In this document: positions 8,893 to 42,065 of the stretch, one piece after another | Layout of the letters: each line of letters starts with the position of its first letter | Position numbering within the stretch: the first letter of the stretch is position 1 | Origin: Prorocentrum cordatum | Lineage: Eukaryota; Sar; Dinophyceae; Prorocentrales; Prorocentraceae | DNA length: 64,000 nt | Assembly (NCBI GenBank): GCA_963575745.1 | Contig: CAUYUJ010005703.1 | Coordinates: forward strand, 269,501-333,500 | Reading direction: 5' to 3' | Translations under genes and position numbers: made by a program | The notes under the pieces: generated by a model | What the model saw: only the letters and a program-made list of their open reading frames with translations | Databases searched by the model: none | What the model was told of the DNA's origin: nothing

Positions 8893-9111
8893 CTAGACCC
8901 AAGGAGCGGCCCGAAAGCCAGATCCGCCTCCTGAAAACGAAGTGGTCCATGTTTCAGCGTCTCGAGTGTATGCCGCTTGTTGTTCTTCAGCCACCAGCTC
9001 TTCTTCCTCCACGGGCGAACCAGGGATTTCCTGCTCGGCGTTGCCCGTGATCGCGCAGCTCTCGAAGTATTCGAGGTTGGGCCACCCCTTGAGCAGGTAG
9101 TCGAGCCCGTC
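8893..9111 (-). CDS. Cyclophilin-like PPIase, last recognised exon
   Basis: Begins after the pyrimidine tract CTCCCACCTCCCTCCAG and reads DGLDYLLKGWPNLEYFESCA, then ITGNAEQEIPGSP and an acidic tail. This is the C-terminal cyclophilin block (G..YL...FP.L(D/E)YI..C.I). It joins exon 4 in frame (MEKE-DGLDY). The frame stays open to a TAG at 8,893-8,895. However, from about 8,966 downward the sequence matches an interspersed repeat also found at 41,247-41,308, so the real end is probably a stop or donor before 8,967. Confidence 0.78.
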   Translation of the reverse strand, partial: DGLDYLLKGWPNLEYFESCAITGNAEQEIPGSPVEEEELVAEEQQAAYTRDAETWTTSFSGGGSGFRAAPWV

Positions 9112-9119
9112 CTGGAGGG

Positions 9120-9310
9120 AGGTGGGAGATGAAAAAGAAGGGGGGGGGAGAAGGGAGGGAGGGAGGATAGGGAGAGAGGAAGCAGGACGGCCACGGGCGG
9201 CGACGCGGCGAAATCTCGGCCGACCCCCCAAGTGGGCGGCAACGAGGCGGCCACGAGGCGGCCACGGGAGGCGACGCGGCGAAACCTCGGCGCATCCATC
9301 CAACTCCTTA
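9120..9310. repeat. GA-rich tract and GGCGACGCGGCGAAA repeats
   Basis: GGGAGGGAGGGAGGAT-type purines on the plus strand (the pyrimidine tract of intron 4 on the minus strand). They are followed by two copies of GGCGACGCGGCGAAAYCTCGGC separated by AACGAGGCGGCCACGAGGCGGCC. Confidence 0.75.
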
Positions 9311-9439
9311 CTGACAGAAGTAAGAACACCCAACTGCAGGCAGTGTGTTGTGTAATTGTTCATGTATGTATCTATGTATACACATACATGCACAGATCCC
9401 CCAAACAGTGCTAGCACTTATGGTCTTACTTGTGACTAC

Positions 9440-9745
9440 GGAACTAGGCCTGTCTGCGGTCTTGCGGTTATGTTGCCGCCGTCGCCGCCCGCCCCGTCTC
9501 CGCCTCGTCGCCGCCCGATGTGTGGGCCTGTCTGTCGGTCCCGCGGCTATCTTGCCGCCGTCGCCGCCTCGTCGCCGCCTCGTCGCCGCCCGTCGTCCAA
9601 GCCTGTCAGTCGGTCGCCGCGCTTGCTACGGCCGTCGCCGCCCCGTTGCCGCCCCATCGCCGCCTCGTCGCCGCCCGTCGTCTGGGCCTGTCTGTCGCCG
9701 TCTTGGGCCGTCGTGGGGCAGTGTCGGGGCGGTAAGGCCACAAGG
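9440..9745. repeat. GTCGCCGCC repeat region with 72-86 bp higher-order unit
   Basis: The words GCCTGTCTGTCGG and GCCTGTCAGTCGG recur near 9,450, 9,527, 9,600 and 9,685, with GTCGCCGCC runs between them. Confidence 0.75.
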
Positions 9746-10490: not shown

Positions 10491-10555
10491 GGGGCACGAT
10501 CCGCATCAACAAATACCATGCAGGCCACTCTCGCGCGTCGGCCGCGCGCGCATGT

Positions 10556-21420: not shown

Positions 21421-22085
21421 ATCCCCAACCCTCGACGGACCCGAACCTCTGACATCGTGATTGGTAACTGTCAGGACGTGGGCCCGGAATCTCTCGCCTC
21501 ACCCGTGGGAGCCAGCTTTCATCCTGGATCGCTGCGTCGATGGCCCCGGAGCCTGAGAGCCGCCCCCAGTGGCCCAGAACTCCCGCAAACCTCACTCTTG
21601 ATGCTTCGAAACGTTTGGGCCCTGGGCAGGCAGGGGAGGCGCGCACAAGGGGGTCGGCCGCTCGAGGGGGGCGGCCTTCTGAGAAGGCAGGGAACCTCCT
21701 GTGAGCATCGGTTGGCCGATCCCAAAGTCCCCACTGGCATGGCCCTGGCAACGCTGGCCGATCTGCCCCCCAAGATCGGGACATGTTCCCTTCGAGCTTC
21801 CAGGTGCATGTCCTCAATTGGGGGGTGGGATGGCGGGGCTGACATATCATGGCCCAGTGGGGACGGGGATGGGTTCAACGATACTGATCTCAGACGCCCC
21901 TCCTGGCTCCCAAGAAGCATTCGTAAAAGCCTCCGGGCCCTTCTAAGAAGGCCCCCGCCTTCTAAAGAAGCTCACCACCGACTTAGAAGGCCGCCTCCAT
22001 CGCGCGACCCTCGTGTGTGCGCCGCCCGGGGAGGCGGAGACGGGCGGCCTGGATGTAACCGATCGGGGGCTGGATGTAAATGCTC
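21421..22085. other. No gene recognised
   Basis: Intron 3 of the cyclophilin gene. Contains GGCCTTCTGAGAAGG (about 21,671), shared with the 7.45-kb region, and AGAAGGC words nearby. A 546-codon plus-strand frame crossing here is antisense to exon 3 and rejected. Confidence 0.5.
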
Positions 22086-22198
22086 GGGGTCTCCAACGCC
22101 TGGTCGCCAGCCACACCGTCCGCGAATACAATCCACATCTGCGACGTGCGGGACTCGCCGCTGGAGCCCGCAAAAGCCACGGTGCCGCGCCGCAGGGG
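22086..22198 (-). CDS. Cyclophilin-like PPIase, exon 3
   Basis: Encodes PLRRGTVAFAGSSGESRTSQ, then MWIVFADGVAGDQALETP. This is the diagnostic RGT(V/L).(F/M)A....SRTSQ(F/M)(F/W)I core of cyclophilins; the Gln is kept and the following active-site Phe is Trp. It joins exon 2 in frame within an 8-bp direct repeat (GCAGCCCC). The 3' end is uncertain. The homology-guided end (ACCCC, joining CCCC-A at exon 4) keeps ETPLGQARDGL, like the usual ETPxGxVxxG. A GC-AG alternative ends at 22,100 (CCAG then GC), is also in frame, and would drop eight residues. Confidence 0.85.
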
Positions 22199-23130
22199 CT
22201 GCAGCCAGGGCCTCGATCGGAGATCGCGGATCCCTCAGATCTGGGCGTCGCAACAATATCGTGACACGACCCGTTTTTCGAAGTGCTCGGTCTCTGCTGG
22301 CTTGTTCCTGGCCCAGGACCTTCAGAAAACGGCTCAGGTTGAAAAGCTGGCCACGGGCAAGGGGTCGAGATCACTGGGCGTCCACGTCACGAACAAAATG
22401 CGACGTCGAAGGAGAGAGGGATCGAGGTTCGAAGAATCAAGGCCTTTGCGTGTTTGGGGTCATTCTTGGGCCTCCGATCGGCTCCGGGAACCTCTGCGGA
22501 AGCCTCGGTTGGCCTCTGGGGGGGACCTCTGAGCGCCTCCAGAGATGTTCGGGTAATTACGTCTGGGGCGGTCGTCGTCGTCGTCGTCGTCCTCGTCGTT
22601 CTTCGGTCGTCGTTTCTCGCTCGTTGTTCGTCGTTCGTTCATCGTCAATTTCGTTCGTTCATTCATCGTCGTCCTCGCGCGCGTCGTCATCGGGATCGAC
22701 GCCGCCTCGGAGGACCAGAGCGCCACCCACACCGACCTTGGCAAGGCAAACGCTGGGCCCCTTGGGTTGGTGCACACGCCCTCCGAGCGGGCATGGAAGG
22801 AGGGCGCACCGCCAGGAACATTTGCGCGCGGGCATGAGTTCTCCGCGTAGCGCTGCTGGCGGGGGCGAAGGCGGGGAACACGATGGTTTGGGCCCCACAG
22901 GGGCTCAAGATCTGGCCGAAATCGGCGCGTTCCCCGAAACGCCGACCACGTCTTCCCCTATGACATTTCAACCGACCGACCGAAACTGTTGGCCAGCGCC
23001 CACCTACATCCTCAAGTTAGCCGGCGCGCACACGGGAGTTGGGCAAGGTTAGGTGGGTGGCCTTCCAGGACGGCGGGGAGCTTCTGGGACACCCTCCTGC
23101 CCTCGAGGAGACCATCTTAGAAGACTCCGA
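22199..23130. other. No gene recognised; GTC microsatellite
   Basis: Start of intron 2 territory as read from the 3' side. GTCGTC and CGTTCGTTCATTCATCG short repeats lie at about 22,570-22,690. Confidence 0.5.
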
Positions 23131-23133
23131 CCC

Positions 23134-23192
23134 CTTGAGGGAAAGGAGGAGGAGGAGGAGGAGGAGGAGGAGGAGGAGGAGGAGGAGGAGCG
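23134..23192. repeat. GGA microsatellite
   Basis: About 58 bp of pure GGA triplets. Confidence 0.95.
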
Positions 23193-23479
23193 CCACCACA
23201 CCCAGGTGCATGCCGCCAGCAGCTGCTGGAGTCCTGCCCTGGAAGCTGCCAGAGTCTGCCCTGGATCGCTGGGGAACGGTGGACAGAGGCGCTTTGCCGC
23301 CCTCGAGGGCCGGCTGACATCAAGGCTCTTTCGTCTGGCCGCGGGACCCTAACAAAAACTGCACGACGCGGCGAAGAAACGATCGCGGAGATGAGATCGA
23401 GAAGCGGAACGTTCGGCGGGAACCGGCTCAAGGAGGGAAATCCGCCGACCCTGTCGGCCTGTGGAAGACGTATCCTGGT

Positions 23480-23715
23480 CTCGTCATCTTGCGTGGGTCG
23501 TCGTCGCCCACGAGACCGTCACGTCGGCTCCAAGAGGGGTGGTCGGCTCCCCTCGGGGGAGGGGAGCTGCCCACGACACCGCCACGTCGGCTCCAAGAGG
23601 GGGAGTGGTCGACTCTCCCCGGGCGAGGGGAGCGGCCGCGGCCGCGACCCGGGGGGGAAGCCAATCTGAGCAACGTCGTAGCTTACTCGAAGGGAAGCCC
23701 CCTTCCCTTTTATTA
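23480..23715. repeat. G-rich satellite family, isolated copies
   Basis: Tandem CGTCGGCTCCAAGAGGGG units (23,521 and 23,582). They are followed by the signature GGGGAAGCCAATCTGAGCAA continuing into CGTCGTAGCTTACTCGAAGG, which is repeated five times at 38.3-39.3 kb. Confidence 0.85.
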
Positions 23716-24540: not shown

Positions 24541-24544
24541 TACC

Positions 24545-25588: not shown

Positions 25589-25628
25589 CTAGAACCACGC
25601 GCGCGCTGCGCGCGCGCTTTGGTTCTAG
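25589..25628. repeat. 40-nt palindrome closing the 200-bp satellite array
   Basis: CTAGAACCA at the left and TGGTTCTAG at the right flank facing GCGCGCGC arms. It would form a strong hairpin or cruciform. Confidence 0.85.
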
Positions 25629-26800: not shown

Positions 26801-27415
26801 TCATCCCCTGGCGGCACCCCCTTGTGTTGCCCAAGTGCGAGGCCTGTCACATCGCGATAATTCTAATCGTGATATGGAAAAGGAGGGAGGAGGAGGAGGA
26901 GGAGGGAGTGAGTAGACGGAGGCGCGACACGGATAACAAGAATTCACGACGCAAAACACGGAAATAAACGCCGCAACATATTCCACGAGACGTGCAACTG
27001 CCTGCACAATGATCCGTTATCACCGTCGCACCCTTGATCCGCACGCGTTCGACGGAAACTGGCGGCAATCAAACTGGCCCAATCTGCCAGGGCATCGCTC
27101 GTGGGGGGAGGGCCTCCTCGCCTCGGGCTGCTCTCCCGCAGCCGCGCCCCGCCGTCGACGGCGAGCGCGCGCCTTGTGGGTGCCCTGACCGTCCCGGGCG
27201 GCCGCCGCAGGCCCGAACGTGCGTTTGATTCGCCCATGTCGTCCAGCCCGCCCATCTGAACCAAGAAAGCCGGTTTCTGCTGAGACATCCTCACGATTCG
27301 CTCTTAAACTTAAGCTGGCCACGGCGTGCAGGTGACGCTGGCGGTGTGCTGCCCGCGCCGAGGCGAGAGCGCCGTTTGGACGGACTTTCGGCCATTGTAC
27401 GGTTCGGCCCGCATA
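26801..27415. other. No gene recognised
   Basis: Contains a GGAGGAGGAGG tract (26,885-26,910) and otherwise unassigned intronic sequence. Confidence 0.45.
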
Positions 27416-27419
27416 GTAC

Positions 27420-27715
27420 GCTATGTTATCAATGCGAGGCTAAGCTATGCGGTGTGATGCGATGCGATACTATGATGTGCGATGCGATGCTATGCTATGC
27501 TATGCTACGCCATACTGTGCCATGCGATGATCTGCTAGTATATGCGACGCGATACGATGCGATGCTATGACATGCTATGCGATGCGATGCTATGCTATGC
27601 TATGCTATGCTATGCTATGCTATGCTATGCGATGCTCGTCTATGCTGTGCTGTGCGATGCTATGCGATGCTATGCTATGCTCTGCTGTGCGATGCAATGC
27701 TATGTTGTAGCTCCA
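27420..27715. repeat. TATGC pentanucleotide microsatellite
   Basis: About 300 bp of TATGC/GATGC units, purest at 27,588-27,630. Confidence 0.95.
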
Positions 27716-27800
27716 GTTGGTTCCCCTTCCTCACCCCCACCACCACACGCACAACCTCTTTATCACCCGAAGGGTGGTCGTACATGTAGGTATACACTGG
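27716..27800. repeat. Dispersed repeat family 2, copy 1
   Basis: TTGGTTCCCC...TCACCC, then CTTTATCACCCGAAGGGTGG and TCGTACATGTAGGTATA. This matches 51,388-51,450. Both copies sit directly after a microsatellite. Confidence 0.8.
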
Positions 27801-27879
27801 CAGGATCTCGCGGCCAGAGATACAACCGCCTCGCGCACACTTGCCTGGAGCGGGGAGGGATGGGGAGGAATCTGGGAGG

Positions 27880-29095
27880 AGCGGGGAGGGGTGCAGAGTG
27901 AGGTGTCTTGTGGGCCTCTTGGACTGTCTCAGAGCGCTCTGGGATCCACAGGCGCCTACGGAGGTCGTCTTGGAGGGCTCTGTGGGACGTTTTGGGGCGA
28001 TCCTGGGAGCTTCTTGGACCGTCTTGGAGGCCTTGTTGGGATGTCTTGCGGCGCTCTTGGGGTTCTCTGAGGCCGTCGTGGACGCTATTAATACAAAGCG
28101 CATATGCCCAAAATAGACGCTTCCCAAAGGAATTAGGGCGATGTGTGTTCCTTGCGGCCCTCATAAGTGTCCTCTTGAAGCCCTCTTCAAGCGCTTGGGG
28201 GGCCTCTCGGGCCGTCTTGAAGCCATCATGGGCGTCTTGACGAACTCTTGGACCGTCTCGGAAGCCTCCTGGACCGTCTGGGGAGCGCCTTCGGGCCCTC
28301 CGAAAGCCCCCCGAAGGACCCCGAGGGACACAGTGGGCACCGCGGGGGGAGGGGGGAGTTTGGGAAAAGTGGGCAGCCTCGGGCCCCAGGGGTCTGGTCG
28401 CGGGGTCCGCATGGTGATGGGCAACTATGATGAGCGCTTGCGCGCTGCAGTCAGATCCACCTTGAGCCAAAATGGCTACGGATGCTCGTGGGGCGTCTTT
28501 GGGGGCTCCTGTGGGGCCTCGTGGAGCCTCTAGGAGGCCTCTAGGGGGCCTCTTGGGCTCTCTTGGGGTCTCTTGGGGCCTCCTGGAGGCCTACTGGGGC
28601 GGAAGGCTCGAATTGTCGGTTCGTGTTCCCCCTCTTGAGCCCCTCTTGGGGCCCTCTTGAGGCGATCTTGGGCGCCTCTAGGGCCGCCTTGGGGCACTTT
28701 TTGGGCCATCTTGGGGGCTCTCTCTATTGCGCCGTCGTGGCGCCCTCTTTGGGTGCCTCTTGGGCCGTCTTGAGCTGGTTTCTGGGGCCTCATGGGCTGT
28801 CTTGAACCGTTGGAAGCACGAAACAGCGAGAACACGAACAAGCTTCAAAAACCATGGAGGAAACCTACTTGCTTCGCCTCCTGAGTGCCTCGTGGGAACA
28901 CTTTTGAGGGCATCTTGGCAATATTGAAGCTCTCTTGGGCTGTCTTCAAAGCCATGTTGGACCAATTTTGGAACGCTCTTGTGCGGTCTTGGGCTCTCTC
29001 GGACCGGTCGTGGGCCATCAAGGCGCCCTCTTGGACGTCTCTCGGCCCCTTTTGACGTTTTTTGGCGCCCCCCGCTGGGCCCGAAACGGTAAGAC
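27880..29095. repeat. GGCCTCTTGGG-type degenerate repeat block (reverse orientation)
   Basis: TCTTGGGGCC and TCTTGGGCCGTC words recur every 10-12 bp. Two A-rich cores lie at about 28,088-28,130 and 28,812-28,870. It surrounds a spliced-leader copy at 28,461-28,482. Confidence 0.85.
28461..28482 (-). other. Dinoflagellate spliced-leader sequence, perfect 22-nt copy
   Basis: The minus strand carries T followed by CCGTAGCCATTTTGGCTCAA and G, identical to the conserved dinoflagellate trans-spliced leader, then GTGGATCTGACTGCAGCGCG. Either a relic left by reinsertion of a trans-spliced mRNA, or an SL RNA gene (GT follows directly, as a donor would). No Sm-site-like T run was seen in the next 60 bases, so a relic is favoured. 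A short ATG frame begins at 28,424. Confidence 0.9.
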
Positions 29096-29129
29096 GAAAA
29101 ATCAGTGCACTTCGGAGGGCCCAGGACCC

Positions 29130-29161
29130 CCTACCCATTATACGTATATATATATAACACT

Positions 29162-29205
<44 letters not shown>

Positions 29206-29237
29206 CTATAGATTATGCATACAAAATCCAGCACAGC

Positions 29238-29269
<32 letters not shown>

Positions 29270-29525
29270 ATGTATGTATATATATATGTGTGTATATGTA
29301 TGTAAAAATGTGTACAAATACATGTTCATATATACATACATACATGCATACATACATACATACATCCATGCATGCATGCATGCATGCATGCATGCATGCA
29401 TACATATCTACATACATGCATACATACATAGACACATATATACATACATGCATGCATGCATGCATGCATGCATGCATGCATACATACATACATACATACA
29501 TACATACATACATGCACATACATAC
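29130..29525. repeat. TA, CATG and CATA microsatellites
   Basis: TATATA runs at 29,145-29,290, then CATGCATGCATG and CATACATACATA to 29,525. The Tyr/Ile/His/Met ORFs here are artefacts. Confidence 0.95.
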
Positions 29526-29529
29526 ATTT

Positions 29530-30115
29530 CGGAGGGCTCTTGGGCTGTGTGTTGGCCATGTTGGGCCCATCTGAGGCCACGTTCGGGCCGTCAGGGCCGC
29601 CTTGGGGCCTCCCGCTCCCGCTGTGGGGCCCAGCATGGGCCTGTCCTGGGGCTCTCTTGGGCCGTCTGAGGCTCGTCCCAGGCAATTTTCGGGCTCCCTT
29701 GGGCAATCTTGGTGCTCTGCTGGAGGTCTTTTCGGCGGTTTCGGGGCGTCGTCGGCTGTCGTAGAGCGCCGGGAGGTCGAAAACGCGAGACACCGAAAAA
29801 CATTTCAAAAACCAACGGAAATCAAGGATTTGAGCCTCTTCGGGCTCTCGGGATGCTTCTCGGAGCTCTCTTGAGGCCTCTTGGAGGCCTCTTGGGCTGT
29901 GTATTTGCGGTCTCGAACCCATCCTGGACCACGTTAAGGCTATCTGGGCTGTCTTGGAAGGGCTTGTCGAAGTCCCCGAGGGCTTCTGGGAGCTCTCTGG
30001 GACAGTCTGGGAGCTCCAGGGCCGCTCCGGGGTGCTCTGGGAGCGGACTGGGGAACCCTGGTCCTCCCATGCCCTGTCGTGGTCGCGGCCCCGGTCGCCC
30101 GGGCCTCGTGCACGG
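29530..30115. repeat. TCTTGGG-type degenerate repeat block with A-rich core
   Basis: Same family as 27.9-29.1 kb. The A-rich core at 29,778-29,830 reads GAAAACGCGAGACACCGAAA and continues AAACATTTCAAAAACCAACG. Confidence 0.85.
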
Positions 30116-30124
30116 GGATATCTA

Positions 30125-30125
<1 letters not shown>

Positions 30126-30169
<44 letters not shown>

Positions 30170-30915
30170 GTATGTACGTATATATATGTATACACATCGA
30201 CATATACATATACGTCTGCATATACATATACATTTCCATATGCATCTACATCTACATCTACATCTACATCTACATCTACATCTACATCTACATCTACAAA
30301 TGACATACATGTAAATATAGATGCACATATTCATTTACATCTACATCTATATATACATATACGTATACGTATACACATACATATACATGCCCATGTGTAA
30401 ATACATATACAAATGCAGATACATCTACGTATACATATACGCATACATACACATATACATAAACATAAGCATATGCACATACGCATACCTAAACCTATAC
30501 ATATACATACACATATACATATAAGTATGCATACGCATCTGCATGCATCTATATTGAAAATAAAATCATACCTATACAAATGCATATGCCTATGTACAGA
30601 TGCACCTATACACAATATTTTGCATATATATATATATATGTATACATATGTATACATATTCACGTGCAGTACATGTACATGTACATGGATATATACATAT
30701 ACCTATACAAATACATGTACATCAACATGTGCATACACATATACTTGTACATATGCATGCACATGTACATGTACATATACAGATGCAGATATATATATAT
30801 ATATATATATATACATACATATACATACAAACATACATATGAATATGCATATGCAAATACATATACATTTACATATACATGTACATACGCATATACATAT
30901 ACATGTGCATATACG
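30126..30915. repeat. TC, CATCTA and CATATA simple repeats
   Basis: TC dinucleotides (30,126-30,160), CATCTA hexamers (30,244-30,298), then imperfect ATACAT/ACATAT repeats to 30,915. Confidence 0.95.
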
Positions 30916-31009
30916 AGAGAGCGTGATCCACCGCCGCTTTACTGTGGAAAATTGCCAACCTTTTCCTCCGGAACCCAGGGGTCTCCCCCCCCCCTCCGAA
31001 AATCCCCCC

Positions 31010-31740
31010 CCCCCTGCTGTATTGGGGCCCTCTGGAGCGCGTCCTGGGCCGTATTGGGGCGGTCTCGGGAGCTTCTGAGGTCGTCAAGCACGGACCGACA
31101 GCGAAAACAAGCAATATGTTGAAAATATACGTTTTACAAAGAGAATGGGGCTATTTTGGCCCCTTGGGGCTCTCTTTGGGGCCCTATTGGGGGTCGCTTG
31201 GGGTGTCTTGGGGGCTTCTGAAGCCACCTTGAAGGCCATGTTGGGCGTCTGGGAGCGACCTTCGGGCGTCCCGGGTCTGTTCTGGAGCCTCTTGGGGCCT
31301 CCTTGGCGCCTTCTGGCGGCCTTCTGTGAGGCCCCGGGGCTCCCCGAGGGCCCCGGGGCCCACATTTGCGGTCGTCTTGGGCCCTTCGTGGGCCGTCCTG
31401 GAGCTCTCTGGGGCTGTATTGGGGCCCTCTGGGGCGCGTCCTCGGCCGGACCGACAGCGAAAACAAGCAATATGTTAAACATATACGTTTTACGAAGGGA
31501 ATGGGGATATTTGGGGCCCTATTGGGGGTCGCTTGGGGTGTCTTGGGGGCTTCTGAAGCCGCCTTGGAGGCCATGTTGGGCGTCTGGGAGCGACCTTCGG
31601 GCGTCCCGGGTCTGTTCTGGAGCCTTTCGGGCCTCCTTGGTGCCTTCTGGCGGTCTTCTGTGAGGCCCCGGGGCTCCCCGAGGGCCCCGGAGCCCACATT
31701 TGTGGTAGCGGCGCCGGCCCCGGGCGCACGGACCTGGTGC
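31010..31740. repeat. 356-bp tandem repeat, two copies, TTGGGG-type
   Basis: CGGACCGACAGCGAAAACAA starts at 31,091 and 31,447. Each copy has an A-rich core (AATATGTT.AA.ATATACGTT) followed by about 300 bp of TTGGGG(C/T)-type repeats ending GGGGCTCCCCGAGGGCCCCG. Confidence 0.92.
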
Positions 31741-31754
31741 GCCGTCATATGAAT

Positions 31755-31945
31755 AAATACGTATGATGTTTTACCATGCGTATACATACACATACGTGAG
31801 ATGTTACACCATGCATATGCATACACATACGTAGATGTGATACCATGCATATGCATACACACACGTAAGCATTGACACACTGCATGTACATGCACGCACG
31901 TAAGATGCTGTACCATGCATGTAGATACATGTCCGTATGATATGA
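31755..31945. repeat. About 43-bp tandem repeats with CCATGCATATGCATACACAT
   Basis: Four degenerate units: CCATGCGTATACATACACAT, CCATGCATATGCATACACAT twice, and a drifted fourth copy. Confidence 0.8.
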
Positions 31946-32254
31946 GGTCACAGATGTTCATAGATATACGTGTGCTGTGGTCTCAGATATACAGATATAC
32001 AACCATGCCCCCCTAGCTGAAAATGATACCTATGTGTGAATCATACAGGGCGCGCATGGGTTAACATCACACATGCATAGGGCGGTGTGTCCCGACAGGC
32101 GGCTCCACAGCCGGACAATTGTTTCAAGGGTTTTGTTTCAAGTTGTGTTTCAAGTTTTGTTTCTGGGGCGTTTCGGATTTTGTCTCTGGGCCCTGGCCTG
32201 GTTTTGTTTCTGGGCCCTGGCCAAGAGTGCCCAAGAGGCCCCCCCGGAGGCCCC

Positions 32255-32700
32255 AAGAGGTCAGAGTTGTGAGGATGCCTCAGGCGGTAGTGGCCAGACC
32301 ACCTGCTCAGGGCATCTCGCAACTCAGAGTGGCGAGGGTCTCAGGCGGAAGTGGCCAGACCACCTTGGGGCAATGTATCTCCGAGGTCAGAGCTCAGTGC
32401 ATCTCGGAACCCAGAGTTGCGAGGATGTCTCAGGCGAACGTGCCCGGACCACCATGGGGCAGGGCACCTCCGAGGTCAGAGATCGCAGGATGTCTCAGGC
32501 GAGATCGGAGTGAACACCTCACCTCAGGGCGTCTCGGAACCCAGAAATGCGAGCGTGTCTCAAGCGAAAGTGCCCGGACCACCGTGGGGCAGGGCACCTC
32601 CGAGGTCAGAGTTTCGAGGATGTCTCAGGCGAAAGTGGTCTGACCAACTCAGGTCAGGACGTCTCGGAACCCAGAGCTTTGAGGATGTCTCAGGCGAACC
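32255..32700. repeat. About 65-bp tandem repeats with GAGGATGTCTCAGGCG
   Basis: Seven units with GATG(T/C)CTCAGGCG(A/G) at about 32,274, 32,338, 32,425, 32,489, 32,554, 32,620 and 32,685. Most are followed by GTG.CC(A/C)GACCACC and GAGGTCAGAG. The core is the reverse complement of the GAGACATCCTC core of the 152-bp satellite. Confidence 0.88.
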
Positions 32701-33030
32701 GGGCCTCCTCCTGCGCTTCCTCCTCTTCCTCCTCCTCCTCCTCCTCCTCCTCCTCCTCCTCCTCCTGCTCTTCCTCCTCCTGCTCCTCCTCCTCCTCTTC
32801 TGCCTGGATGCTGCGCCGGTTGCGAACGCCTGCTCCTCCACGAAATTAGTCCTCATCCGCCTCCCCTTGCCCATGTCCCTCCCCGCCTCCTCGCTCTTTC
32901 TCCCCCTCCTCCTCCTCCTCCTCCTCCTCCTCCTCCTCCCTCCTCCTCTCCTCCTCCTCCTCGTCGTCCTACTCCCCCCCTGTCCTGTCTTCATCCTCCC
33001 ACTCCTCCTCCCTCCTCCTCCTCCGCTGGC
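32701..33030. repeat. CTC microsatellites flanking a non-repetitive island
   Basis: CTC runs at 32,722-32,800 and 32,898-33,025. The island between (about 32,805-32,895) reads on the minus strand GRDMGKGRRMRTNFVEEQAF and ATGAASRQ, which could be a small exon. I could not tie it to any gene. Confidence 0.7.
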
Positions 33031-33289
33031 CGAGCCGGGCCGGGCCGGGCCGAGCCGAGCCGGCGGAGGAATAGTCTGATTATGGAAGGGAGGGGGAAGA
33101 GAACGAGCAGGAGGAGGAGGAGGAGGACATGGATGAGGTGCTTTTTCGAACGGCCGAAACGGTCCTCCCGGTCCCCTCCACCTCCTACTCCTTCTGGCTC
33201 TACCCTCGGCTCGGATTGCGCTGGACGCCTGCCCGACGTTCACTCCTCCTCCTTCTCCTCCTCCTCATCCTCCCTCCTCCTTCCCGGGT

Positions 33290-33365
33290 GCCCGGGGGAT
33301 GCCCGGATGCCCCGGTGCCGGGGTGCCTGAGGTGCCCCGGTGCCCGGGTGCCCGACAGGGGGTCT
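33290..33365. repeat. GGTGCCCGGGTGCCCG minisatellite
   Basis: About eight units of an 8-10 bp motif. It truncates the Helitron-like remnant on its 3' side. Confidence 0.85.
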
Positions 33366-33397
33366 TCCGTGCGGGTCTTCCGTGCGGCGACAGTGCT

Positions 33398-33630
33398 CTC
33401 GCTGTTGAAGGATGCGAATCCAAGGGCGCAGTTGTACGACCGAATGTGCTGCATGAAGTGGTCGTGGGAAAGACCCGGACGAAGGAGCTGAGCCATTTCG
33501 GCCGGAGCGGGAGGCAGCAGGGGGATGCCAGCCAGGGCTCCGTACCTGCAGCACGCGCCGAAGTCCTTTTTCTGCGTGCTGCCGGGCAGCGCGCGCGTTC
33601 GGCGAAGAAGTGCAGCGCCCCGCACGTTGC
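33398..33630 (-). pseudogene. Helitron-like replicase, N-terminal conserved block
   Basis: On the minus strand, TCATCGALHFFAERARCPA (about 33,630-33,575; C-x2-C-GALHF..ER) is followed after a one-base frameshift by DFGACCRYGALAGIPLLPPA (33,565-33,506) and LSHDHFMQHIRSYNCALGFA (33,472-33,413), then SFNSE. This is the order seen upstream of the Rep domain in Helitron replicase/helicases: C..C.A.H....R, F..CC..G...L..L, F..(H/N)IR.YN.A.(A/G)FAS. The Rep HUH and helicase domains are missing, cut off by a minisatellite. Inference: a truncated rolling-circle transposon on the same strand as the host gene. Confidence 0.75.
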
Positions 33631-33689
33631 GCAGGTTCCTTGAAAGTGGCCGGTCGGAGAGAGCGACGCTTTCGGAACGCGGTTGCTGC

Positions 33690-34310
33690 ATCATTCGTCT
33701 GTCGACCACCAGCCGGCGCGGTGGCCGGTGCGTACGCCAAGAGAAGTCCCAGGCACGGGTTCTGCGAACCAGTTCCGATGCGCTGCGCAGGCGGGCGGAC
33801 AGCTGGACGAGTTCGGAAGTGCTACGCGGGTGGACTTGAAGCGACACCACGGCACGGAACATTTCGGCGAGTCACGTGCTCGGAGGTACATGCGGACGGC
33901 TGCCCCCACCTGCTTGCGGAGTGCTTGCAGCGGATCGCTACGTGGACGGGCGTGTGGGGCACCAGAAGACCCCCACGTCGGAGGATGATGGGACCCGGCG
34001 GCGGCGGTGGCTACCGCGGCGTGTCGGACGTGGTCGGGGCAGTATCCGGTGGCGTACATTGCTTTCGTCAACTTTCTGTCGCACAGTGGGAAGGAACATG
34101 TGAGTTTAAAGCAACGTTCGCACATGCCGTTGTTGTGCGGCACTGCGCGTCGCACGCCATGGCGGGCGGGGGCGCGGCAGCCGGCCTTTCCGGGCCCCTG
34201 GCAACGGGGCCCCGCGAGGCAACAGTGCCTACATTCCACCACGGTGCCGAGAGGGCCCACGCGAAAAGCGCACCCAATGGCACGATTGCTACATGGCTTC
34301 CCTTTTCCGA
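33690..34310 (-). pseudogene. Cys-module array, third segment
   Basis: Minus-strand frame with at least four modules: ECRHCCLAGPRC, CQGPGKAGCRAPARHGVRRA ending CERC, CSFPLCDRKLTKAMYATGYC ending CPDH, and CSVPWCRFKSTRVALPNS ending CAAH. Pattern: C-x4..6-C-x11..18-C-x2-(C/H). It leads into the Helitron-like block. A one-base frameshift separates it from the preceding segment near 34,265. Confidence 0.7.
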
Positions 34311-34699
34311 ATGCACGCGATGCATAGGCCGTCGGACGACTTCCGTTAAGCTACACCGTTGCACCCAGACGAGCTACAAGGGCGTTCGGCTTGCTCGTAG
34401 GATCGTTTGGAGAGGGATGGTAGTGGTTGTGGTGTGGACAGCCCACACGTTCGACATAGGCCTGCTGAACCAGGGGTGGAACGGCCGTCGCACCTACGCG
34501 TCGCGCATGGGAAACAAGACGAAGTGCAAAGACAACACAAGGTGTCATCTGGCGACTCGACTACGTTCGTACACGCGGGCGCGCGGCAGAAGTGGAGCAG
34601 GGCGGGCGGTTGGCAGACGAGGCAATGCTGTCCGTGTTGTCGAGGGACGCGGAAGTTGCAGGTGGCCGTAGCGCAAGGAAAGACCCCGACGATGCACAT
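34311..34699 (-). pseudogene. Cys-module array, second segment
   Basis: Minus-strand modules with tight spacing C-x4-C-x10..11-C-x2-C: CATATCNFRVPRQHGQHC ending CLVC; CRAPACTNVVESPDDTLC ending CLC; CATRRCDGRSTPGSAGLC ending CRTC; CSSSGCNGVA, then an in-frame TAA, then RKSSDGLCIAC. The stop inside the fourth module shows decay. The spacing resembles C-x4-C...C-x2-(H/C) zinc modules that are common as tandem arrays in dinoflagellate proteins (family recollection). Confidence 0.72.
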
Positions 34700-34751
34700 G
34701 GGGCATGGCGCGCCCGTTCGAGATGTGCTTTCTTGCCCTTTCGGAGCGCTA

Positions 34752-35449
34752 CATCGCGAGGGCGTAGATGCAAGCGCCGTCGAAGACTTGCGCTGGAGCG
34801 GCTAGAGAAGGGCTGGCGGCTGGGCTGGCTCCGCCACAGTGAGCGCGCAGATCTGGAGTTCCGGGCGCTCCTCGGCGCGAGAAGCACACTGTGCACGGTC
34901 GACGTCCGGCTTGGCATGGGACGCAAGTGCTGCGGGCTGCATCGCTCCGTTCCTCATGGCAGCCAGGCGATGCGCAGGCGAATTGCCGACCAGGGTTGTA
35001 GGCGCAAGAATGGTTGTTGTGATGGTTAACGCATTGCGGAAGCCGGCCTGATGCATTTTTGACCTTTTGCCGGACGTGGGAAGGACACCCCAGCACCGCG
35101 AAGCGACAGGGCAGGGAGCCTTCAGAGCACGGAAAGCACGGGCCAGATGATTTGTCGGTTGTCAGAAAGCGGCAGCCGACGCGGGCGTTCCTACACAAGT
35201 TCCACTCACGCGTGGTATTGTGGCATGGGTCGGAAAAGTGCGTTGTGCAGAAAATAAGCGTGACATGTGTTTTTGGCCGTCGGAAGGGTGGAGCTACAGG
35301 AGCCTCGCACTGGGGGTGGGCACACCGTGCATCTGCCGAAAGGCACCGCTTGCAAAATCTGTGACGTTCTCGTTTGTTGGTGCCTTCGACTGGGATCTGA
35401 GCTTGGAGTCCACTGCAAATTGCATAGTTATGACACTGTGTCGCGGCCT
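34752..35449 (-). pseudogene. Cys-module array, first segment (long open frame)
   Basis: A 230-codon open stretch on the minus strand holds about eight C-x4..5-C and C-x2-(C/H) pairs. Examples are CHNYAIC, FCKRC, CAHPQC, FCTTH, CRNARVGC, CFPC, CRFAVLGC, CVNHH, CASPGC and CVPC. There is no start codon at its 5' edge (a TGA lies just upstream), so either an exon edge or decay. The Cys density is far above that of the antisense frames. Likely role: DNA- or RNA-binding part of the Helitron-like protein. Confidence 0.7.
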
Positions 35450-35800
35450 CTCAGTAACAGCTGGAGCCATGACCACGAATACGGAGGTGCAGGGAGCGGC
35501 GGCTCGACCCGCGATATGGATGGCAGCCTGCAATGCCGTAAAAGTAAGCAGGAGAATACTGACTGGTGACTGCGGAGGCAGCAGCATCATGTCTTCAGCC
35601 GATATGGGGCACGGGGTCGGTGGAGCAGGACGCGGAAGTGCAATTCGGAGACCTTGTTGGAAGCTCCGGGAACAGCCTCGGCGCTGACCTGGGCCCCGTC
35701 ATGGCTCCATGGATGGGCCAATGGCTGTGCACGGAAACGGAAAGAGCGCTGAAGGAACTTGCCCGAGACGGCTCATGGCACCCTTCGCTCTTGGGAGCGT
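35450..35800. other. No certain gene; possible 5' continuation of the Cys array
   Basis: On the minus strand a C-x4-C pair (NCTSASC) occurs near 35,640 in a frame broken by a stop. Otherwise unassigned. Confidence 0.4.
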
Positions 35801-35829
35801 AAATGTTAAGGGCTGGTTACGTCACTGCT

Positions 35830-36055
35830 CCCCGTCCTCCTCTCCTCCTCGTCCTCCTCCTCCTCCTCCTCATCATCATCAGCCTCCTCCATGTCCCCCC
35901 CGCTCTCTTCAATCTGCCGTTCCTTCTCTTCCTACACCTCGTTCTCGTCCTTCCTCACCTCGAGTCACTCCCCAGTCCTCCTCATCCTTCGCTCCCCTTC
36001 CATCCTTGTCATCAGCATCCCTCGCCACCATTACTTACGCCTCCTCATCATCATA
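35830..36055. repeat. CTC/CAT-rich tract
   Basis: CCTCCTCCTCCTCCTCATCATCATCAG and flanking pyrimidine-rich sequence. Confidence 0.85.
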
Positions 36056-36059
36056 ATGT

Positions 36060-37385
36060 ATGGTGTGGCTCTCGCGTGGCCATCATTGGGCTGTCTTGGG
36101 GCCTCGCATGACCCTCTCGGGGTCAATTTTTGGAGGCATACTGGAAGTCTCTGGGGCGTATTGGGAGGAGTTGTTGGGCCTCTTGGGAGCCTCCGGGGAG
36201 CCTTTTGGGGGGCGCTTGGGTGGCCTCGGGGGGTTTCTTGCGGCCTCGTGGGGCCCTCTTGGGGTCCGCTGGGCTCGCTTAGGCAATCTTGAGGCCATGT
36301 CGGGGCCCTCCTGGGGCCGTCTTGGGCGACTCCTGCGCCGTCCTGGGGCGCTCTTGGACCGTCTTGGGACGCCTTTGGGGGCGTCTTGGGCCGTCTTGGG
36401 CCCGGCTTAAGGGTCTCTTGGGCCGTCCTGGGGCTCTCTTGGGGGCCTCTTGGGCCGTCTTGGAGCGTCGGAAAGCAAAAAAAGCAAGAACGCGAAAAAC
36501 ATCGAAAGAACCAATGACAAATCAGCGTTTGTGGCCTCTTGGGGTTCTCTTGGGAGGCCTCTTGGAGGCCGCTTGGGGCGTGTTGGTGGCCTGTGGGCTC
36601 GTCTGGAGGCCATGCTGGCGCGTGTTGGAGGCTCGCTGGCCTTTTAGGCAGTCGTCAGGCCATGTCGGGGCCCTCCTGGGGCTGTCTTGAGCGGTTCCTA
36701 GGTTGTCTTGGGGCTCACTTGGGCAATCTTGGGACGCCTTTGGGGGCCTCTTGGGCTGACTTGGGGCCGGCTCAGGGGCCTCTTGGGCCGTCCTGGGGCT
36801 GTCTTGGGTGCCTCTTGGGCCGACTAGCAGCGTCGGAAAACAGAAAAAGCGAGAAGGCAAAACAAATATAAAAAACAATGAAAAATCAACGTTTGTGGCC
36901 TCTTGGGGCTCCTTGGGAGGCCTCTTGGAGGCCGCTTGGGGCGTGTTGGTGGCTTCTGGCCTCGTTTGGAGGCCATGCTGGCGCGTGTTGGAGGTCCGCT
37001 GGGCTCGCTTAGGCAGTCTTCAGGCCATGGCGGGGCCCTCCTGGAGCTGTCTTGGGCGGCTCCTGGGCCGTCCTGGGGGCCTTTTGGGCCGTCTCGGGAC
37101 GCCTTTGGGGGCTTCTTGGGCCGTCTTGGGGCCGGCTTAGGGGCCTCTTGGGCCGTCCTGGGGCTCTCTTGGGGGCCTCTTGGGCCGTCTTGGAGCGTCG
37201 GAAAGCAGGAAAAGCGAGAAGACAAAAAACATTGAAAAAAACAATGAAAAAAACAACGTTTTTTGCCTCTTGGGGCTCTCTTGGGAGGCGTCTTGGAGGC
37301 CGCTTGGGGCGTGTTGGTGGCCGCTGGGCTCGTCTGGAAGCCATGCTGGCGCGTGTTGGAGCGCTCGCGGGCTGTCTTGGCTGGG
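36060..37385. repeat. 365-bp higher-order tandem repeat, three-plus copies
   Basis: Units begin GCGTCGGAAA at about 36,466, 36,832 and 37,196 (periods 366 and 364), with a partial copy before and one after. Each has an A-rich core of about 55 bp (AAAAGCGAGAA, AACAATGAAAAA, CAACGTTTG) and about 300 bp of TCTTGGG(G/C)C words. Related cores recur at about 6.05, 20.75, 28.1, 28.8, 29.8, 31.1, 31.5, 43.15 and 49.65 kb. Confidence 0.93.
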
Positions 37386-37505
37386 CTGGAGCCCGCCCTG
37401 GCGGTCTCTGGAGCCGAACGGGAACCCTTCCGAGCGGCCCCGGGGGCCCTGCACCCCCATGCGCCCCCGAGGTCCTTGGGCTCGGCCGGGGGACATCGTC
37501 CCCCA

Positions 37506-37506
<1 letters not shown>

Positions 37507-37570
<64 letters not shown>
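37507..37570. repeat. TA dinucleotide microsatellite
   Basis: About 62 bp of TA, directly abutting a unit of the 200-bp satellite. Confidence 0.95.
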
Positions 37571-37571
<1 letters not shown>

Positions 37572-38005
37572 TCTGGGCCCAAGAGGCGGCCATGCCAACG
37601 TCAAATATAGAAAACACAATACAATATGCGAGGCGCGCGGGCGCGCTGGTGACCCGCGCGGTGCCGGGTCACCCGCACGCGCGCGCGATGCCTCCTGTAT
37701 TGGTTTTATACAATCGGAGGCCATGTTAAGTTGAAAACTCAATGATCAAAACCCAATGTAAATATTCATTCTCTGGGCCCAAGAGGCGGCCATGCCCACG
37801 TCAAAAATAGAAAACACAATACAATGGGCGAGGCGAGCGCGGGCGCGCTGGTGACCCGCGCGGGGCCGGGTCACCCGCGCGCGCGCGCGATGCATCCTGT
37901 ATTGGTTTTAGACAATCGGAGGCCATGTTAAGTTGAAAACTCAATGATCAAACCCCAATGTAAATATTCACCCTCGAGGCCCAAGAGGCGGCCATGTAAA
38001 CCTTG
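37571..38005. repeat. About 200-bp satellite, second array
   Basis: Two-plus units identical in structure to 24.5-25.6 kb. ATCGGAGGCCATGTTAAG lies at about 37,713 and 37,915, each unit with the GGTGACCC/GGGTCACC hairpin. Confidence 0.93.
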
Positions 38006-38084
38006 GCAGGTCTTAGCAGCATTTCCATTCCCCTCCGTTTGGGCAACTGGAAGAAATGGGCCGCCACCAATGGATAGACGCCCC

Positions 38085-38250
38085 CCGCCAATCAAGCCGC
38101 GCCGAGGGTGCGACGGCGCCCGGGGGATGGGCAGATAGACGGACAGAAGATGCGCAGACGTATCGGTGCGACGGCGCCTGGGGGGATAGATGTAGATACA
38201 TGGATACGCCGCGCCAGCAAAGCAAAGCCGACGGTGCGGCGGCGAACGCT
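38085..38250. repeat. About 70-bp repeats with GGTGCGACGGCG
   Basis: Units at about 38,106 and 38,175, and a drifted third at 38,230. Related to 23,900-23,990. Confidence 0.75.
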
Positions 38251-38284
38251 TTTTGAATATTGACCAGAACGGAGATCAATACAG

Positions 38285-39330
38285 GGGGAACCCCCTTATC
38301 TTTTATTCCTTCCCCCCGAGGGGGGGGGGGGGGGAGGGGGGAGGGATCACACCCGGATACGCGGGGGGTGGGGGGGGCACCCGGGCGGCTCCCTTTGGGA
38401 GAGGGGAGCGGCCGCGAGGCGGAGGGGAGCGGCCGCGACCCGGGGGGAAGCCAATCTGCTCCCCCCGGGACACGGGGGGGAAGCCAATCTGAGCAACGTC
38501 GTAGCTTATTCGAAAGGAAGCCCCTTCGCCTTAGCTGCCCCGATACGCAACACGCAACACGTATCGTATTGATACGGAGCTCAACACGTGGGCTGAAAAC
38601 GTAGGTACGACGCGATACGTTCGCCAAAATGTAAGCCAATACGTGGAGCCAACACGCAACGTATTGACACGGACGTCTTGAACACGGGACGTTTTGCGTA
38701 TCGGAACCGGCGTATCGAGGCAGCCAAGCCCTTCCCATGTACCCCTTCCCCCCGAAGGGGGAGAGGGGAAGAGGGGGTCACACCCGGATACGCGGGGAGG
38801 GGGGGGGGGGGGGCCCCCGTGCGGCTCCCTTCGGGGGAGGGGAGCGGCCGCGACGCGGACGGGAGCGGCCGCGACCCGGGGGGGAAGCCAATCTGCGCGC
38901 CCCCAGACACGGGGGGGAAGCCAATCTGAGCAACGTCGTAGCTTACTCGAAGGGAAGCCCTCTTCCCTTTTATCCCTTCCCCCGAGGGAGGGGGGGGAGG
39001 GGGTCACACCTGGATGCGCGGGGGGCGGGAGGGGGGGACGGAGGGGCACCCGGGCGGCTCCCCTCGGGGGAGGGGAGCGGCCGCGACGCGGAGGGGAGCG
39101 GCCGCGACACGGAGGGGGAAGTCAATCTGAGCAACGTCGTAGCTTACTCGAAGGGAAGCCCCCTTCCCCCCTTTTATCCCTTCCCCCCGAGGGGATGGGA
39201 GGGGGGGGGTCCCACCCGGATAATTACCCAGGGGGGGGGGGGACCCGGGCGGCTACCTTCGGGGGAGGGGAGCGGCCGCGACGCGGAGGGGAAGCCAATC
39301 TGAGCAAAGTCGGTGTTCACTCGAAGAGGG
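38285..39330. repeat. G-rich satellite array
   Basis: Units of variable length (about 440, 204 and 172 bp). They are built from CCTTCCCCCCGAGGGG, TCACACCCGGATACGCGGGG, GGGGAGCGGCCGCGA and AAGCCAATCTGAGCAACGTC. The last word is at about 38,475, 38,916, 39,119 and 39,291. Confidence 0.9.
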
Positions 39331-40156
39331 GGGGGTCCTGGAAGGGGGTCCCAAGGGGGGGTCCCGGGTCAGAATACCACCCTCCCGGGGCCCATGGCCC
39401 GCCCTCTCCCTCCCATTTCTGTCGAGGGCAGAGGCCTCCAGGGTCGGCGGCACTGGCCGTAAGGCCTTAGCAAGATCAATTTGGAATCAGAATATGTCGC
39501 CGACAGGTCAAAGACAGGCGATAGGCCCACGATAGCGAACCCGCAAGGTCCTGGGCTGGGTGTGCTGGCGGGCCCCTGTCGGCGATGAAACGGCGATTGG
39601 GCATAGATGACCCCCTGAGTCTGTTCCCCCTACCGTTGCCCCTGACCTCTGGGTGCCCACGTCGTGAAAAAGTCACGACGTCGGAAGTCTCTGGGCTGGG
39701 TCGGTGCAACTAGGCGGATGATTGGCGCCGCCCCCGAGGGCCTGGGCCGGTCGTCCTTGATGGTGGAGTTGCCGAATCTGTGAGGCTGGAAAGTCGCCAC
39801 CCAGATCTCCAGCGATGTGAGTTGTTCAATCCCAGCGTTTTTTCTCGAGCTCGGCTTCTGAGGCCCCCCTATTGGGCCCCCGGGCCATCGAACATGACTC
39901 CCGGACACCAAAAAAACTACCCCTGGGAAGTGGGACGAGACCCTCGGGGCCGCGCAGTTAAACAACACATCGTCTGGGCACGCAACCCAGGGAGGGAGGA
40001 GGGAGCGGGAGGGCAAGAGGAGGGAGGGGGTAGAGCGAGGAGGAACGGAGCGGGGAGGGAGGGGGGGAGGGAGGGAGGGGAGGGGGGGGGGGAGGGACGG
40101 AAGAAGAGAGGGAGAGAACAGGAACAAATATATGGTAAAAGCGCGCGCGCCCGGGG
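39331..40156. other. No gene recognised; GGGA/GGAGG tract
   Basis: 5' part of cyclophilin intron 2. Purine tract at 39,985-40,120 on the plus strand. GTCGTGAAAAAGTCACGAC (39,661-39,679) is a perfect 7-bp inverted repeat. Confidence 0.5.
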
Positions 40157-40226
40157 CTGCTCTCCAGTCTCTGGGAACCTCTGCTGCAGGGTGCTGTTGT
40201 GGGAGACCCCGAACTGCGCCAGGAAG
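40157..40226 (-). CDS. Cyclophilin-like PPIase, exon 2
   Basis: Seventy bases encode FLAQFGVSHNSTLQQRF and PETGEQ. Joined to exon 1 they give GFLAQFG, the cyclophilin GF(M/L).Q.G active-site block; Phe and Gln are kept and Met is Leu. The phase fits: exon 1 ends in GG and this exon supplies the C. The exon edge is AG then CTTCCT, repeating the CTTCCT at the end of exon 1. The 3' edge GAGCAG then CCCC repeats at the start of exon 3 (GCAGCCCC). Confidence 0.83.
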
Positions 40227-41876
40227 CTCCGTGGTCGAGCTGGGCACCCCAAGAGCAAGAGGGGTCCAGGAACCAAGAGGGCCAAGGATCAGAGAAAACC
40301 TTGAACAGGTCTTAAAACCGAAGGCAGGGCAAGGAACACATTGAAGACGAATTGGGAATCTCCGAGACCCGGTGAGTCTGGAGGATGAGTCTAGCGCCGC
40401 GGCCGTCCCAGAGCATTCCAGAACGCGCTCGATGCATTCTGATCCTAGGCACGCCAGATCTCTGGATCCTCCACTCGGGCACACGTCCACATGAATCGGG
40501 GAAAGTACCCCCCCCGAAGCATGAAGCCAATAGCGCCCGATCTGGCGACGGGTCGCGCAGATTCTGTACGAAAGCAGCGCCCGTCGCCAATCCACGCGAC
40601 TTAGATCCCCGCTTGCGCTTCCTCGGTCCAGCCCCGCTACTCGATCCTCCCCCGGGTCCCCGCTCAGCCCACCGACCGGTCACGCCGATCGACGCCACAC
40701 CTCGCGCGGTGGACCTGAGCCTCCGACGTCGTGACCGTGACCTGTTCGATGCCAGCGGCTTCTCCGTCGCGGTAGTGTTCGGAACGCCAAGAAAGGAACG
40801 AAAGGGCCTCTCTTGCGAGGCGGGAATTGATCCATATCCGCCGCCTCGGAATCGACGTCCTGGTGCCCCAGCGGGCGGTGGATGTGGATATATTTCGGCC
40901 CCCGGGAGCCCGAATATGTCCATATCCACCGCCTGCCGAGGCTCCGAAAACTGACCCTCCAGGCGGTGGTCATGTATAAATTCCCGCCTCGGATCTCTGG
41001 CCTCGGAGGGCTGCGGCCACGGCCAGATTCCACGACCCAGATGTACGGTCAGGAACGTTTGCTCAGCGTGTCGCGCCGGCGGCGGCCCTGGCGACACGCT
41101 ATGCCTTGCGAGGTGATTGCGTGTCGCTCCGCTCCTTGAGGGGGGAGGCTGGGAAGATCTCGGGACGTGCAGATAACTGGCGGGCGCCGAGACGTGGAGG
41201 GCCAGAAGCGGCGGAGCGACACGCTAAGCCAAAGTCACGACCGTAGGGAGCGGCCCGAAAACAGGAGCCCCTCGTGAACCCAAAATGGCCCTCGTTTCAG
41301 CGTCTCGACTGCAGATCTCGGCCTCTGGAGGCCCCCTCTGGGCCATGGGGCCGTCAAGAGGCAAGAGCATGAAAGGCAGTGCACAGGGAGGGGTCCAAAG
41401 CTCCAGGGGCCACGTGCTGGCGAATGTCATGGCATCGGAGCTCAGAGGTCAGACACCACCCCCATGCTAATTTACCAAGGCAGGGCACCATGACAATTAG
41501 CGGGGAACCCAGACATCAGACGTCGTGCTTTTTGTCGCAACGTGGCTCCACTGAGGGCTGGACGCCTTCCCCAGGACCTGCTCTTCATCCTGAGCGCCGT
41601 TCCTTGACAGTCCTGGAACCCGGTAGGGGGGGGGCCCGAAAACCGAAAATCAACGTTTATCGTCCGTGGTTTTTGGTTTCGACGCGAGGCGATTTCCTGC
41701 GGGGGCAATCTCCGACCACTGCTGGGAACCCCGTGTCGAAACGCTGCTCCGGAAGATCCAGCAAAGTCAGCTGAAGATTGACCGACACCGTTGCTCACTG
41801 GCCACCAGGCGGTCTGCGCGGCTGCTCTTGGGCCCCCGCTGCCCACCACGAGGTGCCCAGCCGACCGCGGAGGAAG
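40227..41876 (-). mobile_element. Intron 1 with terminal inverted repeats: introner-like element
   Basis: The intron ends carry inverted repeats. CTCCGCGGTCGGCTGGGCAC at the 5' end (41,852-41,872) pairs with CTCCGTGGTCGAGCTGGGCA read inward from the 3' end (40,227-40,248). A second matching block, CCCAAGAGCA, follows on both sides. The element sits inside a CTTCCT direct repeat. Internal inverted repeats occur at 40,874-40,892/40,915-40,933 (19 bp, 2 mismatches), 41,065-41,074/41,091-41,100 (10 bp perfect) and 41,119-41,132/41,211-41,224 (14 bp perfect). Inference: a DNA-transposon-like insertion used as an intron. Confidence 0.75.
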
Positions 41877-42065
41877 CCCTTCACCGCGCGGAAGATGCTG
41901 GTCCCGTTGAAGAACCCATGCTTCACCAGCTCGAGGAAGTGCCCAGACCCTATCGGCGCCCAGTCGGTTCGCACGGTAATGTTGAACTCTCCTCGCACCT
42001 GCAGGTCGTTTTTGAGCTCCTCGGCTGTCTGGACGGCCTTGCCAGAGCGGCGGCCGAAGCGACAC
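41877..42065 (-). CDS. Cyclophilin-like PPIase, exon 1 (first recognised)
   Basis: Reads SGKAVQTAEELKNDLQVRGE, then FNITVRTDWAPIGSGHFLEL, then VKHGFFNGTSIFRAVKG. This matches the start of a cyclophilin domain: a beta strand ending in the WAP(L/I)G turn, an amphipathic helix F..LV..GFF.G, and F(H/F)R. The FR corresponds to the catalytic Arg of cyclophilin A. The 5' edge is placed after CCTCAG, since an in-frame TGA lies 24 bases upstream of that edge. The exon then enters with one base of a split codon. The 3' edge is AAGGG, followed by CTTCCT, which also begins exon 2. More N-terminal exons must exist and were not found. Confidence 0.85.

Follow-up and report, generated by a model that had tools for sequence, protein, structure and literature searches.

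Exons and predicted product

The window analyzed here, 64,000 nucleotides of the bloom-forming dinoflagellate Prorocentrum cordatum (C5703:269501-333500 on a contig of 545,035 bp; contig coordinates equal window coordinates plus 269,500), carries part of a series of 17 small (36-189 nt), collinear minus-strand exons (X0-X16, Table 1) that encode a cyclophilin and that we traced over 162,350 bp. Together these amount to 1,533 coding bases, or 510 residues (0.94% of the span); X7-X15 lie in the window (860 coding bases over 45,132), and the other eight lie outside it, with the start exon X0 77 kb beyond the window and the stop codon 21 kb before it. Very probably these nine belong, with the other eight, to a single protein-coding gene of great length.

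The initial annotation had proposed a single cyclophilin gene of five exons over 33 kb, with introns of up to 18 kb and less than 3% of the span coding. Its five segments do lie in order on the minus strand and translate as described, and the coding fraction is well under the proposed bound; the idea of a single cyclophilin gene interrupted by very long introns is retained, but with 17 exons, an extent of 162 kb and introns reaching 32.0 kb. X7, X10, X14 and X15 are additional exons inside the window, eight more lie beyond it, and the stop near 8,893 taken as the end of the gene is intronic, the last of the five segments ending at 8,995. The proposed join 18,214/9,111 is correct. The join 40,157/22,198 has to be replaced (the exon ends at 40,179, a 36-nt exon at 39,777-39,742 had been missed, and 22,211 is the first base of the exon after it), and 22,086/18,325 gives way to 22,049/18,315 (X11/X12), which yields a GC...AG intron. 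The remaining join, 41,877/40,226, supplies the residues found in relatives but leaves non-standard intron ends (CT...AG).

Tracing combined tblastn with peptide scans of the contig flanks, guided by two full-length relatives (P0004 and P0005) and a GenBank protein (P0021). A tblastn search of the window with relative P0002 recovered four of the five originally noted segments clearly (E 2.4e-22 to 3.7e-9) and the short X9 weakly (E 0.002), and added exons at 8.65 kb (E 6e-4), 53.06 kb (E 0.017) and, weakly, 7.98 kb (E 1.3, with P0003); through P0021 the start exon was located (141.28 kb) and exon X2, at 121.7 kb, was confirmed. Since P0021 is marked as partial and has residues preceding the ATG of our model, the start codon of the model is a choice. 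As a control, the P0005 and P0004 peptides for X1-X16 were scored across a 273,600-base minus strand (30,100 of these N), the plus strand and both reversed sequences. With P0005, each of the 16 exons was itself the one best minus-strand place, scoring above the best plus-strand and reversed places, and with P0004 12 of the 16 were the one best place, which argues that the exon set is not a product of chance; the control peptides were taken from the alignment of the assembled protein, a bias that favors the exons. GC content at the three codon positions (60, 46 and 85%, vs. 61% in introns) follows a coding pattern, and a codon-usage ranking of the window by itself would miss the gene, its best exon ranking 25th (counting from 0).

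The cyclophilin domain is split over six exons (X8-X13, ~33 kb). As had been anticipated, the five originally noted segments, when joined, match the Pfam Pro_isomerase profile (PF00160; E 4e-13, 50.3 bits vs. a curated cut-off of 21.7); taken singly, the first matches at E 1.2e-5 and the other four give no match at E 1. A fold comparison likewise returns the cyclophilin fold, the segments flanking the cyclophilin being barely covered. Alignment by eye indicates that FRAVKGFLAQ retains the catalytic Arg, Phe and Gln; the places of His126 and Trp121 look changed by eye but fall outside the aligned stretch (we take the catalytic residues of human CypA to be R55, F60, Q63, W121 and H126). At the 3' end of X11, beside the splice donor, lies a 21-bp tandem duplication (22,049-22,089) that would add seven residues if both copies were exonic; this 7-residue duplication is absent from all seven relatives (P0002-P0008).

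Searched against 5.8 billion proteins, the 178-residue join gave two relatives among 73 candidates, P0002 (1.6e-62) and P0003 (4.0e-41); with P0002 as query, 19 proteins were listed, these two included, P0004-P0008 being further close ones. All of P0002-P0008 have their segments in the same order as the P. cordatum gene, with 46-74% identity to its protein for P0002 and P0004-P0008. The protein begins with a signal-peptide-like stretch, followed by a linker rich in Lys, Pro and Gly and by a short, conserved segment rich in strands; the divergent cyclophilin domain comes next, and a conserved C-terminal portion ends in -SEL. P0004 and P0005 also have a start that looks signal-peptide-like by eye and an -SEL end, and a C-terminal EL occurs in seven of seven relatives, with varying residues before it. 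The final SSEL departs from the KDEL-type C-terminal pattern for retention in the endoplasmic reticulum (ER), which is [KRHQSA]-[DENQ]-E-L. A cyclophilin that is secreted or resides in the ER is the probable product, and it is predicted most likely to aid the folding of, or to bind proline segments in, proteins of the secretory pathway. A VHL-like beta domain split around the cyclophilin was considered, as the flanks looked alike, and was rejected for lack of profile support: five constructs gave one unrelated weak match in Pfam (KR, 0.051), and a PDB profile search gave two matches (E 0.9 and 1.2), neither of them VHL.

Table 1. Exons of the cyclophilin gene and four of the introns lying at least partly in the window (window coordinates; negative values precede its first base).
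Feature	Position	Strand	Evidence and borders
X0	141282-141231	minus	start exon, taken from ATG; shown by P0021
X1	139063-138965	minus	signal-peptide exon; score 133 vs. next best 34
X2	121745-121666	minus	candidate from peptide scan, later confirmed by P0021
X3	107736-107637	minus	peptide scan of contig flanks
X4	104868-104717	minus	peptide scan of contig flanks
X5	72693-72592	minus	peptide scan of contig flanks
X6	72022-71978	minus	peptide scan of contig flanks
X7 (DVDIFWVKS...VVQV), 86 nt	53063-52978	minus	tblastn P0002 E 0.017, P0005 E 1.8e-8; within P0021; acceptor GCAG/GAC, donor TCAG/GC
X8, 189 nt	42065-41877	minus	cyclophilin domain begins here; PF00160 E 1.2e-5 alone; within P0021; acceptor CTCAG/G, donor GGG/CT (non-canonical)
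X9 (FLAQFGVSHNSTLQQ), 48 nt	40226-40179	minus	donor GAG/GT; P0004/P0005 scores 65/63 vs. next best 27/28 on minus strand
X10 (FGNSTIKDDRP), 36 nt	39777-39742	minus	tblastn P0004 E 0.004; score 52 vs. next best 26; acceptor CACAG/A, donor CCAG/GC
X11, 163 nt	22211-22049	minus	21-bp tandem duplication; exon-peptide scoring; GC donor
X12, 102 nt	18315-18214	minus	GA donor; tblastn plus exon-peptide scoring
X13 (DGLDYLLKGWPNLEYFESCAIT...EEEEL), 117 nt	9111-8995	minus	GT donor; tblastn plus exon-peptide scoring
X14 (VGTVEAGKQLTQQTTRGASFTARLK), 75 nt	8654-8580	minus	tblastn E 6e-4 and 3e-7
X15 (GSTEVLQRVVVKKP), 44 nt	7975-7932	minus	P0005 score 53 vs. next best 31; tblastn P0003 weak, E 1.3
X16 (contains EFVQLSAPVSSEL and stop)	-21025 to -21067	minus	last exon; peptide scan of contig flanks
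Intron X6/X7, in-window part	53064-64000	minus	18.9 kb whole; weak RVT_2 match and high-copy repeat
Intron X7/X8	42066-52977	minus	10.9 kb, GC...AG
Intron X10/X11	22212-39741	minus	17.5 kb, GC...AG
Intron X15/X16, in-window part	1-7931	minus	29.0 kb whole; RVT_1 open frame

Introns, their ends and their contents

From X0/X1 to X15/X16, the introns measure 2167, 17219, 13929, 2768, 32023, 569, 18914, 10912, 1650, 401, 17530, 3733, 9102, 340, 604 and 28956 bases (mean of the 16, 10,051), X4/X5 being the longest and X15/X16 the next. Fifteen of the 16 begin with GT (3), GC (7) or GA (5) and end with AG, some exon borders having been picked by eye for standard ends; the exception is X8/X9 (CT...AG). 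Published P. cordatum donors are GT (24.7%), GC (51.4%) and GA (23.8%), with an AG acceptor that mostly precedes a G (PMC10666404).

Reverse-transcriptase frames lie in two of these introns: an RVT_1 open frame (E 1.7e-30; 1,570-3,057, minus) in X15/X16 and an RVT_2 match below the cut-off (59,739-60,614, minus) in X6/X7. The latter intron also contains a high-copy repeat (53,800-55,300, plus) that is present in at least 79 genome pieces, its own included, with 40 of 515 candidates scored. This repeat holds a long, unclassified open frame, and a plus-strand frame at 53,366-55,447 overlaps it; at query position 427, several other copies (e.g., those on contigs C8297, C18286 and C14066) carry ~86 bases more than the window copy does. 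Many tandem arrays lie within the introns, and two of these (24518-25588 and 37568-37996, both in the 17.5-kb intron X10/X11) have ~200-bp units that share consensus sequence. Genes nested in the introns were considered and rejected, as 20 open frames of the window gave only the RVT_1 and sub-cut-off RVT_2 matches against Pfam. Rfam returned no match in the window at gathering scores; ARAGORN called a tRNA-Thr (cgt) at 56883-56969 on the plus strand, which has no Rfam match at the gathering score and is probably spurious.

Exact matches at each join (exon end with intron end, plus intron start with next exon start) form direct repeats of 2 to 9 nt, summing to 82 nt over the 16 introns, against 55.8 +/- 4.4 when donors and acceptors are randomly re-paired (0 of 20,000 shuffles reach 82), although the by-eye choice of borders for standard ends may inflate the letters shared. 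The sum stays high without X8/X9 (75 vs. 55.9 +/- 4.0; 2 of 20,000) and without both X8/X9 and X6/X7 (66 vs. 51.5 +/- 3.6; 4 of 20,000), and other versions of the exon borders show the same picture. Terminal direct repeats, a mark of introner elements, are found for the 16 introns as a group only; they have been widely reported at intron borders (PMC11782384), and so are not special to this gene.

These features would be consistent with a ~162-kb pre-mRNA whose splicing follows the rules normal for dinoflagellates (donors GT, GC or GA; acceptor AG). Mobile elements and tandem repeats may account for at least part of the growth of the introns, and the short direct repeats at the joins would agree with an origin of the introns by insertion, in which the target site was duplicated.

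Junction X8/X9 and alternative readings

The GenBank-derived record P0021 ("unnamed protein product, partial [Prorocentrum cordatum]", 383 aa) is identical to X0-X8 letter for letter, then continues past the X8 donor with 26 intron residues to 41,798, before an in-frame stop at 41,797; its cyclophilin domain is therefore cut in the middle, the second half and the C-terminus both being absent. In three protein searches (lengths about 98-822 residues; the third search scored the best 8,000 candidates by shared words), no listed P. cordatum entry contains X9-X16. Existing annotation, which had been expected to miss every exon, thus includes the first of the five original segments, the other four being absent from the P. 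cordatum records listed. With a standard splice site missing at X8/X9, a gene finder may well have stopped there, and this suggests that the public annotation split the gene midway, where the splice site is not a standard one.

Several observations count against one continuous gene. At X8/X9, the version that yields the relatives' residues (41,877/40,226) has CT...AG ends. A search for alternatives, covering the bases between 41,914 and the in-frame stop (41,797) and those between 40,328 and the conserved AQFGV codons, found 20 in-frame combinations with standard ends; one of these (GC, 41,890/40,239) preserves length but turns RAVKG into PRPRS, so that FRAV is lost, and the remaining 19 alter the length, the nearest losing two (GA) or three (GC) residues or gaining four (GC). 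The public model does not span the junction. Among the exon peptides, the least clear with P0005 are X2 (score 37; next 29, plus strand 34) and X16 (37; next 28), and with P0004 X3 (209 places at least as good, its own included), X4 (5), X5 (2) and X16 (3) are not unique. A 100-N run in intron X0/X1 (141,054-141,153) means that the distance and join between X0 and X1 rest on scaffolding; the CCMP1329 assembly was scaffolded using transcripts (PMC10666404), so a transcript may have joined the two. A 5,000-N run in intron X4/X5, the only one from X1 to X16, could be, though less probably than not, an assembly gap. Lastly, the inverted repeats that mark introners (8-20 nt near both ends) are mostly missing, just two of the 16 introns having one of at least 8 nt between their ends.

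That no standard splice pair at X8/X9 yields the relatives' residues, and that the public model runs to the first in-frame stop of this intron, would be expected if two transcription units made up the locus, or if the gene were broken between X8 and X9, with X0-X8 encoding a truncated protein and X9-X16 a decaying remnant or separate gene. We consider this unlikely: X9-X16 hold their frame without a stop through eight exons, all seven introns among them have standard ends, their alignment to the relatives is roughly as good as that of the first half, and a cyclophilin domain cut at X8 would presumably not fold. A variant of the single-gene model, in which splicing at X8/X9 uses a standard site and yields a protein that differs at this point, or in which an assembly error hides a standard site, is a serious possibility that falls somewhat short of an even chance. 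The 20 in-frame combinations make room for it (examples being the loss of two residues with GA...AG, a gain of four with GC...AG or eight with GT...AG, or the exchange of five with GC...AG), but FRAV without any change in length is found in all six relatives that cover the junction (P0002, P0004-P0008). Paralogues were uninformative here, there being no close copy in the genome and no help from L020, L022 and L024.

The genome searched (4,128,499,153 bases in 21,875 contigs) has 89 cyclophilin-like matches at E up to 0.001, and it could be argued from their number that the exons belong to several cyclophilin genes or pseudogenes, neighbors by chance or misassembly. This we regard as highly improbable, given that the joined query has 17 genome matches of which the 10 outside C5703 are all distant (30-53% identity), that all the exons find their matches, in order, in the same relatives, and that only the one N run interrupts X1-X16. 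A single gene, with one transcript joining all 17 exons, would account for these observations. An extension of it seems to us improbable: that the 17 tiny exons of a single 162-kb unit are joined accurately even with donors almost unconstrained in sequence, that its insertion-born introns duplicated exon bases, of which 2-9 bp are left, and that the cut is guided by this duplicated stretch and not by a fixed donor motif, so that even the CT...AG intron X8/X9 (7-bp repeat) is removed, with the cyclophilin perhaps sitting in the middle of another strand-rich domain.

Comparison with other cyclophilins and dinoflagellate genes

The other P. cordatum cyclophilins have the Pro_isomerase domain in common with this gene; 31 of the 89 matches cover at least 130 of the 159 profile positions in a single frame. 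Seven similar copies (two places on C18269, and one each on C2321, C1507, C8435, C8665 and C15372) are in two pieces, covering profile positions 2-80 and 80-158 or 76-158 with near-equal scores, and perhaps represent a recent gene expansion. A title-level survey of the literature on dinoflagellate cyclophilins found none on the present gene among the 15 of 59 titles listed; one study reportedly treats cyclophilin B in Cochlodinium.

The locus provides a concrete case of the stretching of a dinoflagellate gene, with ~1% coding over 162 kb and introns of 29 and 32 kb, and X8/X9 offers one junction at which rules of splice-site choice could be tested directly. As the public annotation apparently halved the gene at a non-standard site, there may be a bias in the protein counts and domain lists drawn up for genomes of this kind.

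In style the gene resembles those described for the 4.15-Gb CCMP1329 assembly (22,724 scaffolds, 59.7% GC), which have long introns, GT/GC/GA donors, AG acceptors and introner enrichment (PMC10666404). Introner elements in Amoebophrya (PMC7789003) and in a 2024 review (PMC11453091) are alike in having short direct repeats at intron ends and, at times, non-standard ends; they differ in their inverted repeats, present here in just the two introns. Published P. cordatum genes average 24,462 bp and their introns 4,709 bp (PMC10666404), against a gene of 162 kb, ~6.6 times that mean, and a mean intron of 10.1 kb here. The 2024 review names a 26,372-base Crypthecodinium intron as notable (PMC11453091), and a table of the Amoebophrya paper, in what is apparently its intron part, gives maximum lengths as high as 177,825 bases in the genomes compared (PMC7789003), so that long introns are of a known kind. 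The function and splicing style of the gene are ordinary for the species, and its size, set against the published mean, is unusual.

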